Below are positions 3,249-64,000 of a stretch of 64,000 bases of DNA, piece after piece. Under the pieces are notes generated by a model. That model was not told the origin of the DNA. It saw nothing but the letters and a program-made list of their open reading frames with translations, and searched no databases. The stretch's first letter is position 1. Every line of letters starts with the position of its first letter. The translations under genes were made by a program, and so were the position numbers. Origin of the DNA: Nitratireductor aquimarinus (GTDB taxonomy: Bacteria > Pseudomonadota > Alphaproteobacteria > Rhizobiales > Rhizobiaceae); the NCBI RefSeq assembly GCF_017255295.1, contig NZ_JAFKDE010000006.1, forward strand, positions 186,001 through 250,000, read 5' to 3'.

Positions 3249-3764
3249 TTACACGCGTAAATTGTGAGCCGGGTAATGCTTTTTTCTACGGAACAGTAGT
3301 CCCAGGAGCCAGACTACAGAAAAGCCAAATAGAACGCCCACGCCTGTCCAGATAAATCCGTGCAGCGTCAGTGGCACGGCTGGCTCATAATCATCCAGCG
3401 CGCCCTGTAGAAGCGGTCCATCGGGAGAACGCGCGACGATAAGCGGCCGCAGAACGGGCGAAGCCTCGTCAAATGCAGCCGACTGCCGCTCCAGATCGCC
3501 AAGCCGCCCGATCGCGACACGAACGGACGTGGCGCGGTCACGCAGAAAGTCGCTTCCAGCCTCTTCGTAGACGACAATCGCTCTCTCACGGGTGAGGTTG
3601 TTCCGGGTGGCGTCGGCATCGAAAGCCGAAACCACCAACCTCAGTTCATGCAGGGCGCCATTGAGGCGCTGGCGGTATTGCTGTGCGAACTCCGGCGCCT
3701 GCGAGGTTGCGGCTCCACATGCCAAAGCCACGGCAAGGCCGAGAATTCGTCCTGTTCCAAACAT
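3249..3764 (-). CDS. DUF2937 family membrane protein
   Basis: This 171-residue protein has a hydrophobic N-terminus, then a helical middle beginning APEFAQQYRQRLNGAL. The C-terminal membrane segment (FIWTGVGVLFGFSVVWLLGLLF, shown here only by its start and end) is followed by a basic tail. This layout, and the PEFAQQY and YEPAVPLT motifs, match the uncharacterised DUF2937 family. It lies between the TadG-like gene and a zinc peptidase on the same strand, with gaps of 45-80 bases. Its function is unknown. Confidence 0.75.
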   Translation of the reverse strand: MFGTGRILGLAVALACGAATSQAPEFAQQYRQRLNGALHELRLVVSAFDADATRNNLTRERAIVVYEEAGSDFLRDRATSVRVAIGRLGDLERQSAAFDEASPVLRPLIVARSPDGPLLQGALDDYEPAVPLTLHGFIWTGVGVLFGFSVVWLLGLLFRRKKHYPAHNLRV

Positions 3765-3809
3765 GTTCAGATCTACCTCTTGGGTGGCAGCAGAACAGCC
3801 GGCTTCGGC

Positions 3810-4733
3810 TTAGATCGGATCGTTGAACGTATCGCAATCGGCCAGCCGTCCGCTTTTGAGCCCCCGCGCAAACCATGTCCGCCGTTGCTGCGACGTGCCA
3901 TGATTGAAACTCTCCGGCACCACATATCCCTGGGTGCGGCGCTGCAAGGTGTCGTCGCCAATCTGGTTGGCAGCGTTCAGCGCTTCCTCGATATCGCCAT
4001 CTTCCAGAAGCCCTTTCTGGGCCGTGTAATGCGCCCAGATGCCGGCGAAGCAATCCGCCTGCAATTCGACACGGATGGACATGGCGTTGGCCTCGGCCTG
4101 GCTCATGCGCTGGCGCATCTGGTTGAAGCGCGGCAGGATGCCGGTCACGTTCTGCACGTGATGCCCAACCTCATGCGCCACGACATAGGCCTGGGCAAAA
4201 TCGCCGGTCGCCCCGAAACGCCGGGCAAGCTGATCGAAGAAGCTCAGGTCGATATAGACCTTCTCATCGCCCGGGCAATAAAATGGCCCGGTCGCCGCCG
4301 AAGCAAAACCGCAGGCCGAACGCACGGAATCGCTGAACAGAACCATCGAAGGTTCTTTGTAATCGAGGCCCTGGGACTCGAAGATGCCGTTCCAGGTGTC
4401 TTCCGTCTCGGCGAGAACGACGCTGACGAACTGCTTCATCTCGTCGCTTGCGCCGCCTGTTTCCTGACGCTGTGTCGTGGTCGTCTGGCTACCACCGCCC
4501 GGCTCGCCAGTGAGCATGCCCAGCGGATCAATCCCGCAGGCCCGCAGAACGAAGAACAGGACGACAAGAACAATGATCCCGGACAAGCCGCCGCCAGCGC
4601 GCCTGCTACCACCGGAAGGCAACCTTATGCGCCCGCCGGATCGACCAAACCCACCCGGTAAAGAACCACCGCCGCTCGAGCGGCCCCGGCGGTCTTCGAC
4701 ATTGCTGCTTTGACGGCGGCCTTTCCAGCGCAT
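3810..4733 (-). CDS. Neutral zinc metallopeptidase, YpfJ family
   Basis: This 307-residue protein has a Gly/Arg/Ser-rich disordered N-terminus, one membrane segment (GIIVLVVLFFVLRACGI) and a C-terminal zinc-peptidase domain. The zinc motif HEVGHHVQ is intact, and a NxxEL-QADCFAG segment provides the third ligand region, as in the YpfJ/Zn_peptidase family. The catalytic domain should therefore be membrane-tethered and outside the cytoplasm. No substrate is established for most members. The 97-base gap to the next gene upstream gives it room for its own promoter. Confidence 0.88.
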   Translation of the reverse strand: MRWKGRRQSSNVEDRRGRSSGGGSLPGGFGRSGGRIRLPSGGSRRAGGGLSGIIVLVVLFFVLRACGIDPLGMLTGEPGGGSQTTTTQRQETGGASDEMKQFVSVVLAETEDTWNGIFESQGLDYKEPSMVLFSDSVRSACGFASAATGPFYCPGDEKVYIDLSFFDQLARRFGATGDFAQAYVVAHEVGHHVQNVTGILPRFNQMRQRMSQAEANAMSIRVELQADCFAGIWAHYTAQKGLLEDGDIEEALNAANQIGDDTLQRRTQGYVVPESFNHGTSQQRRTWFARGLKSGRLADCDTFNDPI

Positions 4734-24547: not shown

Positions 24548-24667
24548 GCGGCAACAGCCGCAGGGCTTCAGCCCCTGCGGCACACAATCGTGAAGTCGTG
24601 TGATTTTGACAGGCGGGCATCTGGCCCTACCACTTGGACAAACTGGAAAAGCAAGCTGGAGAAAGCC

Positions 24668-25651
24668 ATGCCCGCCATCCACCGCCGCCCGCGCTGGGCG
24701 GTCGCCGAACATGCGGCCACGCCGGAAGACGTTTTCGCCAACCGCCGGACCATTCTGAAAGGGCTGGGGCTTGGCATGGGCGCGATTGCCGGCGCCGGGT
24801 TGCTACCCGGGATGGCACGGGCGCAGGGCGGGGATGACGCCGCAGGCCGCACCGCCGCGCTTTATCCGGCAGAGCGCAACACGGCCTACACGATCGAACG
24901 TGACGTGACGCCGGAAGACGTCAGCAGCGCCTACAACAATTTCTACGAATTCGGTTCCCACAAGCAGATCGCGCGCGCCGCACAGGCGCTGCCCACCCAT
25001 CCGTGGGACATCGAGATCGACGGTCTGGTGGAAAAGCCCATGACCATCGCCTTCGAGGATCTGGTCAAACGCATGCCGCTGGAAGAACGTCTCTACCGGC
25101 ATCGCTGCGTTGAGGCATGGTCGATGACCGTTCCGTGGACGGGTTTTCCGCTTTCCGCCCTTGTGGCGCTCGCCAGTCCGCTCTCAGCCGCCCGCTATGT
25201 GCGTTTCGAGACGTTCAACGACCCGAGCGTTGCCGGCGGACAGAAACAGGTCTGGTATCCCTGGCCTTATGTGGAAGGCGTCACGATGGAGGAAGCGGCC
25301 AACGACCTCGCCTTCATGGTGACGGGCGTCTATGGCAAGCCGCTTGCAAAACAGTTCGGCGCGCCCCTGCGCCTCGCCCTGCCCTGGAAATACGGCTTCA
25401 AGTCCATCAAATCGATCCGGCGGATCAGCTTCACGGAAGAGCGGCCCGTCAGCTTCTGGGAAGAGATCGCGGCCAGCGAATACGGCTTCTGGGCCAATGT
25501 GAACCCGCAGGTTCCGCATCCGCGCTGGAGCCAGGCGGAAGAGCGTGTCCTCCACACGGGCGAGACCGTGCCCACGCAGCTCTTCAACGGCTATGGCGAA
25601 GAGGTTGCCGCGCTTTATGCGGGGCTCGAAAACGAACAGCTCTATCGCTGA
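24668..25651 (+). CDS. msrP: Protein-methionine-sulfoxide reductase catalytic subunit MsrP
   Basis: This 327-residue molybdopterin enzyme (YedY) reduces oxidised methionine in periplasmic proteins. It has a Tat-type leader (NRRTILKGLGLGMGAIAGAG) and the Mo-ligand cysteine in YRHRCVEAWSM, and the GVTMEEAANDLAF and LPWKYGFKSIKSI segments match the family. The ATG at 24668 has GGAGAAAG upstream. The usual membrane partner gene msrQ is not next to it; downstream is the small-RNA region on the other strand. The function still needs a haem-b membrane partner, presumably encoded elsewhere. Confidence 0.94.
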   Translation: MPAIHRRPRWAVAEHAATPEDVFANRRTILKGLGLGMGAIAGAGLLPGMARAQGGDDAAGRTAALYPAERNTAYTIERDVTPEDVSSAYNNFYEFGSHKQIARAAQALPTHPWDIEIDGLVEKPMTIAFEDLVKRMPLEERLYRHRCVEAWSMTVPWTGFPLSALVALASPLSAARYVRFETFNDPSVAGGQKQVWYPWPYVEGVTMEEAANDLAFMVTGVYGKPLAKQFGAPLRLALPWKYGFKSIKSIRRISFTEERPVSFWEEIAASEYGFWANVNPQVPHPRWSQAEERVLHTGETVPTQLFNGYGEEVAALYAGLENEQLYR

Positions 25652-25675: not shown

Positions 25676-25707
25676 AAAAAAAGAGCCGGATCAAAAGAGA
25701 TCCGGCT
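25676..25707 (-). terminator. Terminator of the candidate small RNA
   Basis: Read on the minus strand, AGCCGGATC and GATCCGGCT pair perfectly around a 6-base loop and are followed by C and seven T. On the plus strand there is no T-run, so it serves minus-strand transcripts. Confidence 0.85.
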
Positions 25708-25803
25708 TAGTCATTGGAAGTGCCATATAGGCGAAACCTCCAGAGGGGAACACTCGCGGGGGCAAATGGGAGGAGAACGCCCCCGGGAGTGCCTCTCATA
25801 TGG
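25676..25803 (-). ncRNA. Candidate AbcR-type small RNA
   Basis: On the minus strand, downstream of the LsrB-type gene, about 125 bases contain no frame but strong structure. A long hairpin has arms at 25779-25791 and 25751-25763 (12 of 13 bases paired) and a 15-base loop reading GTTCTCCTCCCATTT. CTCCCA (25767-25772) is the anti-Shine-Dalgarno motif I recall for AbcR RNAs. An outer stem (CCATAT with ATATGG) encloses it, and the 3' end is a clean terminator with a T7 run. In Agrobacterium and Brucella, AbcR genes lie beside the LsrB/VtlR regulator, which fits this place. Identity with AbcR is inference; the exact 5' end is unknown. Confidence 0.6.
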
Positions 25804-25832
25804 GCAATCGCCGCCTAAATAACAACCACATG

Positions 25833-25862
25833 ATTTTGCAATTCACCCATGCAATTTTGCAT
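25833..25862 (-). promoter_or_regulatory. Possible LysR-type binding site before the small RNA
   Basis: ATTTTGCA occurs at 25833-25840 and at 25854-25861, exactly 21 bases apart (two helical turns). The second copy is part of a perfect inverted repeat ATGCAA-TT-TTGCAT (25849-25862). It lies upstream of the candidate AbcR RNA and right after the end of the LsrB-type gene. Binding by that regulator is inferred. Confidence 0.45.
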
Positions 25863-26860: not shown

Positions 26861-28303
<1,443 letters not shown>

Positions 28304-35163: not shown

Positions 35164-36054
35164 ATGACACGGGTTCAGGCCAATCTTCTTCTGCTTCTTG
35201 CCGGCGCCATGTGGGGCATGGGCTTTGTTGCCCAGTCCACGGCCATGGATGCGATTGGCCCGTTCCTTTTCATCGGTCTGCGCTTTGCAATCGCCTGCCT
35301 CTCGGTGCTGCCCTTCGCCCTGTGGGAAAGCCGCCGCAGCACAGCGAGCCTGACGGTTCTGGACAAGCGCAATTTCGTGGTCATCGGCGTGCTCCTCTTT
35401 GCCGGCATGGCTGCGCAGCAGGTGGGGCTTCTTACAACGACCGTCACCAATTCCGGTTTTCTGACCGGGCTTTATGTGGTGATGGTCCCCTTTCTCGCCG
35501 TCCTCCTGTTTCGGCAATGGCCGCACCGGATTGTCTGGCCGGCAGCACTTTCCGCCCTTGCCGGCATCTGGCTCCTTTCCGGCGCAGGCAAGGTTTCGCT
35601 CCAGATCGGCGACTGGCTCACGATCCTCTGCGCCCTGTTCTGGGCTCTTCAGGTGATCATGATCGGGCGCAGCGCCAGCCACACGGGGCGTCCCGTCACC
35701 CTGTCCGTGACACAGTTCGGGGTAACTGCCGTCATCGCGCTCGCCATCGCTTCATTCATAGAGCCCATCGATCTTGCCGCCATCCGCATCGCGCTGCCGG
35801 AAATCCTCTATGCGGGCGTCTTTTCCGGCGGCATCGCCTTCACGCTGCAGGTCATCGGCCAGCGCTATACGACAGCGCCGCAGGCAGCCATTTTCCTCTC
35901 CACCGAGGCCGTGTTTGCCGCCCTGTTTGGCGCGATTTTCCTTGGCGAACGGCTTCCGCCACTCGGCCTTGCGGGCTGCGGTCTGATCTTTGCGGCGATC
36001 CTTGCCGTCGAGATCGTTCCCGCCATCCGCAGCCGCCGGCGAAGCGTGGCCTGA
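35164..36054 (+). CDS. DMT-superfamily transporter (two EamA domains)
   Basis: This 296-residue membrane protein has ten predicted helices in two EamA repeats; the second ends with the typical STEAVFAALFGAIFLGERL segment. Members export metabolites or amino acids. It is alone, 109 bases after the sugar dehydrogenase and before DUF3775, with no substrate clue. The last residues are a short basic tail. Confidence 0.92.
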   Translation: MTRVQANLLLLLAGAMWGMGFVAQSTAMDAIGPFLFIGLRFAIACLSVLPFALWESRRSTASLTVLDKRNFVVIGVLLFAGMAAQQVGLLTTTVTNSGFLTGLYVVMVPFLAVLLFRQWPHRIVWPAALSALAGIWLLSGAGKVSLQIGDWLTILCALFWALQVIMIGRSASHTGRPVTLSVTQFGVTAVIALAIASFIEPIDLAAIRIALPEILYAGVFSGGIAFTLQVIGQRYTTAPQAAIFLSTEAVFAALFGAIFLGERLPPLGLAGCGLIFAAILAVEIVPAIRSRRRSVA

Positions 36055-63593: not shown

Positions 63594-63822
63594 AGCCGGC
63601 TCAGCATGCGTAAATCATAGACAATTAGCTAGTACACGCAGTCTTGTAGCCATTTCCCTTTCGTGTCATAGATTCCCCGCGCTCGGGTGATTGCAGACCC
63701 GGAGACTGGAAGCTTTATGATTTGGACGGCCCCTTTCCCCGATTTTCTTCAAACTCTCGAACCACCGCTAATCTGTGCACGTTGCGCAGGCGCGAACTCT
63801 CAAAGGGAAAAGGAGTTTCCCA

Positions 63823-64000
63823 ATGGCCCAGACAGGCACCGTTAAATTCTTCAATGCGAGCAAAGGCTTCGGCTTCATCACCCCGGACGATGGCGCGAAA
63901 GACGTTTTCGTACACATCTCCGCAGTTGAGCGCTCCGGCATGACCACGCTCACCGATGGCCAGAAGGTTTCCTTCGAGGTCGAGCCCGATCGCATGGGCA
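63823..64000 (+). CDS. cspA: Cold-shock protein CspA family (5' part, cut by window end)
   Basis: The visible 59 codons give [24 protein letters not shown] with RNP1-type KGFGFI and RNP2-type VFVHIS, so it is a single-stranded nucleic-acid-binding cold-shock protein. The reading frame continues past base 64000. AAAAGGAG lies 7 bases upstream of the ATG. The 229 bases before it hold no gene and probably form the long structured leader typical of cold-shock messages. Confidence 0.95.

Follow-up and report, generated by a model that had tools for sequence, protein, structure and literature searches.

Does the DNA just downstream of an lsrB-like gene of Nitratireductor aquimarinus encode an AbcR small RNA, as a first-pass annotation of the surrounding 64-kb stretch (hereafter the window) had proposed? 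In rhizobia and related bacteria, AbcR small RNAs lower the expression of genes for nutrient uptake. We find that the locus is a real and ordinary AbcR, an expected find of a known type. This reading follows from the match to the ar15 family, from exact copies of the aSD1, aSD2 and LsrB-box motifs in the published order and at the published distances, from the trxB-lsrB context, and from conservation and covariation in relatives. Taken as a whole, the best explanation, with a probability of roughly 95%, is an abcR gene of the AbcR1 type that is activated by LsrB, whose RNA pairs through its anti-Shine-Dalgarno (aSD) motifs at ribosome-binding sites, and which appears to be the only ar15 copy in the genus. 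With it, a circuit of LsrB and AbcR that has been studied well elsewhere, including the control box and the two targeting motifs, is extended to the little-studied Nitratireductor: among titles and the opening parts of abstracts, we found no paper on small RNAs of this genus.

An ar15 match behind lsrB

The scan with Rfam covariance models that the first-pass annotation had recommended gave a match to RF02345 (ar15, the AbcR family) at 25790-25679 of the minus strand, with 48.0 bits (E 1.1e-6) and thus above the gathering score of 40. It is the sole match above any Rfam family's cut-off within the window. This score, together with a loop that is kept in relatives, bears out the proposed AbcR identity.

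The position just downstream of an lsrB-like gene is also correct: the gene product has LysR-family domains, and the predicted RNA starts on the same strand, 101 nt past the stop codon (Table 1). The protein shares 98% identity with its counterpart in Nitratireductor sp. B36, which assigns the window to Nitratireductor or a close neighbour, and 67-69% with the Sinorhizobium/Ensifer copies among the relatives listed; its only cysteines are at positions 140 and 269. As is characteristic of LsrB/VtlR, this LysR-family protein is encoded behind trxB, and a trxB-lsrB operon has been described for Rhizobiales (PMC11975290).

Table 1 Features of the abcR locus (positions in the window).
Feature	Position	Strand	Remarks
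msrP	24590-25651	+	Convergent, on the far side of the candidate RNA
Rho-independent terminator	25676..25707	-	9-pair stem (25707-25684), then C and seven T; helix paired in 100% of alignment A1 cells
Predicted AbcR (ar15) small RNA, ~110-116 nt	25676..25791	-	RF02345 match; fold; start placed by -10/-35 and LsrB-box spacing
aSD2 TTCCCCTC	25743..25750	-	Single-stranded between hairpins 1 and 2; motifs from PMC8844928, PMC5461406
aSD1 CTCCTCCC	25768..25775	-	Loop of hairpin 1; motif sequences from PMC8844928, PMC5461406
-10 box CCATAT	25798..25803	-	-12 to -7 for start 25791; consensus CTATAT from PMC8844928
-35 box GTTGTT	25821..25826	-	17 nt from the -10 box; -35 to -30; weak match to CTTGAC (PMC8844928)
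LsrB/VtlR box GCATGGGTGAATT	25840..25852	-	Exact GCAT-N3-TG-N3-T; -61 to -49 for start 25791
lsrB/vtlR, LysR-family regulator, 296 aa	25893..26783	-	Pfam LysR_substrate and HTH_1
trxB, thioredoxin reductase	26861..27835	-	Upstream of lsrB; TIGR01292 394 bits, cut-off 343

Elsewhere in the window, the cspA thermoregulator family has a full-length match below its cut-off at 63681-63992 (+), with 60.2 versus 78 bits (E 1e-12), and this may be the leader of a cold-shock gene that lies at the edge of the window. A weak match to the type I hammerhead ribozyme at 35616-35658 (-), with 26.1 versus 34 bits (E 0.044), is perhaps due to chance. Neither of these sub-threshold matches affects the AbcR identification. 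A tRNA gene search of the window returned 0 genes. The ar35 family (RF02346) has one match above its cut-off in the genome, on another contig.

Anatomy and predicted fold of the RNA

The candidate RNA contains exact matches to both experimentally known targeting motifs of AbcR, aSD1 CUCCUCCC and aSD2 UUCCCCUC, whose action in S. meliloti was demonstrated with mutants (PMC8844928). The Brucella targeting motifs M1 CUCCCA and M2 GUUCCC were likewise shown by mutation to act (PMC5461406). Here M1 (CTCCCA) corresponds to the last five bases of aSD1 and the next A, and M2 (GTTCCC) is contained in aSD2 with the preceding G. Over the whole window and both strands, this site is the only one where aSD1 and aSD2 are found 20-40 nt apart. 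The long minus-strand hairpin with CTCCCA in its loop, noticed in the first pass, is present, and so is the terminator with its seven T.

The fold of 25676-25803, the slightly longer stretch of the first pass and not 25676..25791, has an energy of -58.7 kcal/mol, whereas shuffled versions average -34.9 (z -6.78) and 0/200 of them are as good. The RNA is predicted to form three hairpins and to measure 110-116 nt, depending on its end within the T run. Length, hairpins and terminator fit AbcR (~114-121 nt), the length being tied to the position assumed for the start.

As 25803-25798 (CCATAT) reads as a -10 box, the RNA probably starts at about 25791 and not at 25803. We picked 25791, between 25790 and 25793, because this puts the end of the -10 box at -7; the Rfam match starts at the next base. 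In the fold predicted from this start, aSD1 is placed in the first loop with a mean unpaired probability of 1.0, in line with the unpaired anti-Shine-Dalgarno motif that the first pass had ascribed to AbcR RNAs, and aSD2 lies between hairpins 1 and 2 with 0.93, as expected of AbcR; with a start at 25797, the value for aSD2 is 0.44. The original extent of 25676..25803 thus contains the RNA but also takes in the -10 box. Similarly, the outer stem of the first pass does exist in the fold, but its outer part, drawn with bases 25796-25792, falls outside an RNA that starts at 25791 and is probably untranscribed.

The longer fold, where 25796-25792 pair with aSD2, suggested that the outer stem could occlude aSD2 in Nitratireductor. 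We judge this unlikely, since the spacing from the -10 box sets the start at about 25791 and leaves aSD2 free; a start at 25797 would revive the idea, as aSD2 would then be partly closed in the predicted fold.

The motif content also bears on whether the candidate could be ar14 (NfeR1-type) or another anti-Shine-Dalgarno RNA instead of AbcR. The genome does hold four ar14 matches above the cut-off elsewhere, and in Ahrensia marina (L121:3486-3609) the site behind lsrB is matched by ar14 (74.2 bits) instead of ar15. The window, by contrast, matches ar15, nothing in it attains the ar14 gathering score, and a single CTCCTCCC loop with a separate aSD2 is found here, versus three CTCCTCCC loops in each tandem ar14 copy. 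We give this alternative hardly any credence.

Three of the ar14 RNAs of the genome (L169-L171), all above the cut-off, stand in tandem at G000:C10:168153-168608 (-) and present nine CTCCTCCC motifs in a row. A DUF1127 gene directly precedes them, with an LsrB-type box, GCATTGCTGTCATGCA, upstream of it. The fourth match (L172, G000:C2:220064-220172, +) scores 59.8 bits versus a cut-off of 58.8, and no LsrB box was found within 300 nt upstream of it.

Candidate promoter and LsrB box

For abcR1 of S. meliloti, PMC8844928 describes a sigma-70 site CTTGAC-N17-CTATAT and, at -61 to -49, the LsrB box GCAT-N3-TG-N3-T. At the level of sequence, the same layout of a box followed by -35 and -10 elements with 17-nt spacing is found here, the distance of the box being accurate only to a few bases because it depends on the assumed RNA start. 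The short form of the box is not rare on its own, as each strand of the window has 6; its extended form here, TGCATGGGTGAATTGCA, is the genome's only match to TGCATRNNTGNNNTGCA without mismatch. A box identical to the published one, at nearly the distance reported, supports LsrB control of the candidate RNA but does not prove it. On this control, published accounts of S. meliloti disagree: AbcR levels are not altered by LsrB according to PMC7486931, which finds AbcR1 of Agrobacterium to depend on VtlR, whereas AbcR1 needs LsrB according to PMC8844928.

A generic promoter scan found no minus-strand promoter at the candidate RNA and listed neither the -10 nor the -35 box. This would suit another view, in which the trxB-lsrB operon merely ends in these hairpins, as its 3' untranslated region and terminator, and no separate transcript is made; so would their location on the same strand, ~100 nt behind lsrB, and the good terminator, and the RNA could be processed from an lsrB read-through message. 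Yet a conserved LsrB box and -10/-35 spacing separate lsrB from the RNA, and loop motifs conserved letter by letter, covariation of hairpin 1 and an ar15 match are unexpected of a plain 3' untranslated region. We therefore consider this origin very improbable and retain an AbcR with its own promoter.

Conservation and covariation in relatives

We examined 700 nt behind lsrB in each of 80 named loci, the best 80 of at least 530 relatives. The exact aSD1-aSD2 pair is found in 51 of these best 80 loci and the order box-aSD1-aSD2 in 35; in the remaining 29 loci, the exact pair is absent from the 700 nt. Neither the pair nor the triple appeared in 4000 dinucleotide shuffles (50 per locus). In the first 29 of the best 80 loci, with LsrB identities of 75-98%, the pair is found in 26, the triple in 23 and a second pair in 0: the loop that had drawn attention to the site is conserved in relatives. 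Of the three loci that lack the pair, L090 shows an ar15 match ~850 nt behind lsrB; in L085 and L087, no ar15 match above the cut-off was found in the locus DNA examined. Two aSD pairs behind lsrB occur in 7 of the best 80 loci, all named Sinorhizobium or Ensifer. Within the genus, the ar15 match is on the same strand, 105-107 nt past the last lsrB codon, in 9/9 other genomes (coordinates compared by eye; 2 of the 9 are 86% complete).

Covariation was assessed on 24 sequences (alignment A1), namely the window and 23 of the 26 loci with the pair (the near-identical L065, L069 and L082 were left out), rows that had been chosen for exact aSD motifs. Hairpin 1 and the terminator pair in 98.2% of cells. 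Changes on both sides with pairing kept are seen in 7 of 19 pairs, versus a shuffle mean of 2.7, with 0/500 shuffles reaching 7; slid versions give at most 3, a comparison that favours the structure because it was derived from the same alignment. Less can be read from the count of further pair types (15 versus a shuffle mean of 12.8, reached by 41/500). Hairpin 1 covaries.

Behind lsrB (~3510-3810 of the loci), AbcR-like RNAs that carry aSD1 and aSD2 exactly, at a distance of 31-32 nt, also occur in Stappia (L112), Cohaesibacter (L120), a Tepidamorphaceae assembly (L127) and a Rhodobiaceae assembly (L129), with ar15 scores of 22.9-37.5 bits, below the cut-off. In a further locus (L134), an aSD pair is found 38 nt apart behind lsrB, and ar15 gives no match there with an E of 1 or below. 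The Rfam ar15 model thus places the Nitratireductor lineage near its cut-off and the lsrB-linked RNAs of these four other lineages below it.

Copy number

The genome (4.57 Mb) has 1 ar15 match above the cut-off, two others being at 14-15 bits. A lineage model, R1, built from the 24-sequence alignment with the window sequence among its members, scores 135.3 bits at the candidate site and 22.6 bits at the next best, which has neither aSD motif. The first-pass annotation had advised testing for a second tandem copy elsewhere; none was found across the genome with RF02345 or R1. The weak hits of R1 (L163-L168) and ar15 (L003-L004) were rejected as second copies, as no aSD1-aSD2 pair occurs on either strand of the 500 nt examined; L165 alone among them has one aSD2 octamer.

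AbcR has been described as present in multiple copies per genome in Rhizobiaceae and Brucellaceae (PMC3712013). The one copy found here departs from that description, which we do not treat as needed for AbcR membership. Each of the 10 genomes of the genus searched, the source genome and 9 others, has a single ar15 match, so that Nitratireductor appears to keep one AbcR copy. Such a genus would be a simpler place to ask what one AbcR does. In the family, R1 matches 158 of 199 genomes (sources of the model included), 94 with one match and 64 with two or more; the search was filtered more strictly, at the risk of missing weak or divergent copies, and the single-copy counts are hence upper bounds. 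Family is used here in the sense of the genome collection, which may differ from the families as meant in 2013.

With somewhat more doubt than conviction, we suggest that Nitratireductor and many of its neighbours run their AbcR network on a solitary LsrB-driven copy, a stress-driven second one having been lost or never gained, while this genome has in addition the four ar14 RNAs, three of them in tandem behind the DUF1127 gene with its LsrB-type box, so that LsrB would control most of the cell's output of anti-Shine-Dalgarno RNAs. Just two points are mildly new, the single copy and the lineage's low Rfam score.

Proposed mode of action

In the pathway that we propose, LsrB, made from the adjacent upstream gene on the same strand, would bind its box at about -61 to -49 and activate the sigma-70 promoter. 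The RNA would then expose aSD1 in the loop of hairpin 1 and aSD2 in the stretch that joins hairpins 1 and 2, as in the predicted folds. Judging from work in S. meliloti, Agrobacterium and Brucella, it would act in trans and, helped by Hfq, pair with messages for transport and metabolism at their ribosome-binding sites; the genome has an hfq gene. As for published members, such pairing would block translation of the target messages or speed their decay.

We compared duplex energies of the aSD segments with the start regions of 54 substrate-binding-protein (SBP) genes of the genome and 41 control genes of the window, start codons being set by a simple rule. The 54 are the usable part of 57 SBP genes above family cut-offs (L195, L199 and L206, with no start, were dropped; the sub-threshold L214 and L230 were excluded). 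Complementarity to aSD1 is better in SBP genes than in controls (p 0.002), but their Shine-Dalgarno sequences are also stronger (p 3e-5) and reversed aSD1 gives p 0.04. For aSD2, p is 0.14, and 0.12 when reversed; the better of the two motifs gives p 0.003, again in SBP genes with the stronger Shine-Dalgarno sequences. The leaders of L237, L240, L217 and L192 scored best. The complementarity of SBP genes does not demonstrate targeting over and above strong ribosome sites.

Comparison with known systems

NfeR1 (ar14) is likewise an anti-Shine-Dalgarno RNA and is activated by LsrB in S. meliloti (PMC10746234). It differs by its three like aSD motifs and its Rfam family, which is represented elsewhere in this genome.

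With Brucella abortus AbcR1 and AbcR2, the candidate shares both M1 CUCCCA and M2 GUUCCC (PMC5461406); there, in contrast, each of the two copies sits on a chromosome of its own, and VtlR controls abcR2 alone (PMC7486931). Like AbcR1 and AbcR2 of Agrobacterium tumefaciens, the RNA lies directly downstream of vtlR/lsrB, and VtlR drives AbcR1 in that species (PMC7486931), which has two copies versus one here.

Finally, S. meliloti AbcR1 (RF02345) also adjoins lsrB, with an LsrB box at -61 to -49, identical aSD1 and aSD2, three hairpins and an oligo-U terminator (PMC8844928, PMC3712013). The stem of the first hairpin and the second hairpin are of other sequence in Nitratireductor, which accounts for the Rfam score of 48 bits, versus 65-127 in several family genomes with adjacent copies. 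A tandem pair in S. meliloti corresponds to a single copy here, and its far-side neighbour is an ArsR-type gene, whereas in Nitratireductor this place is taken by the convergent msrP.
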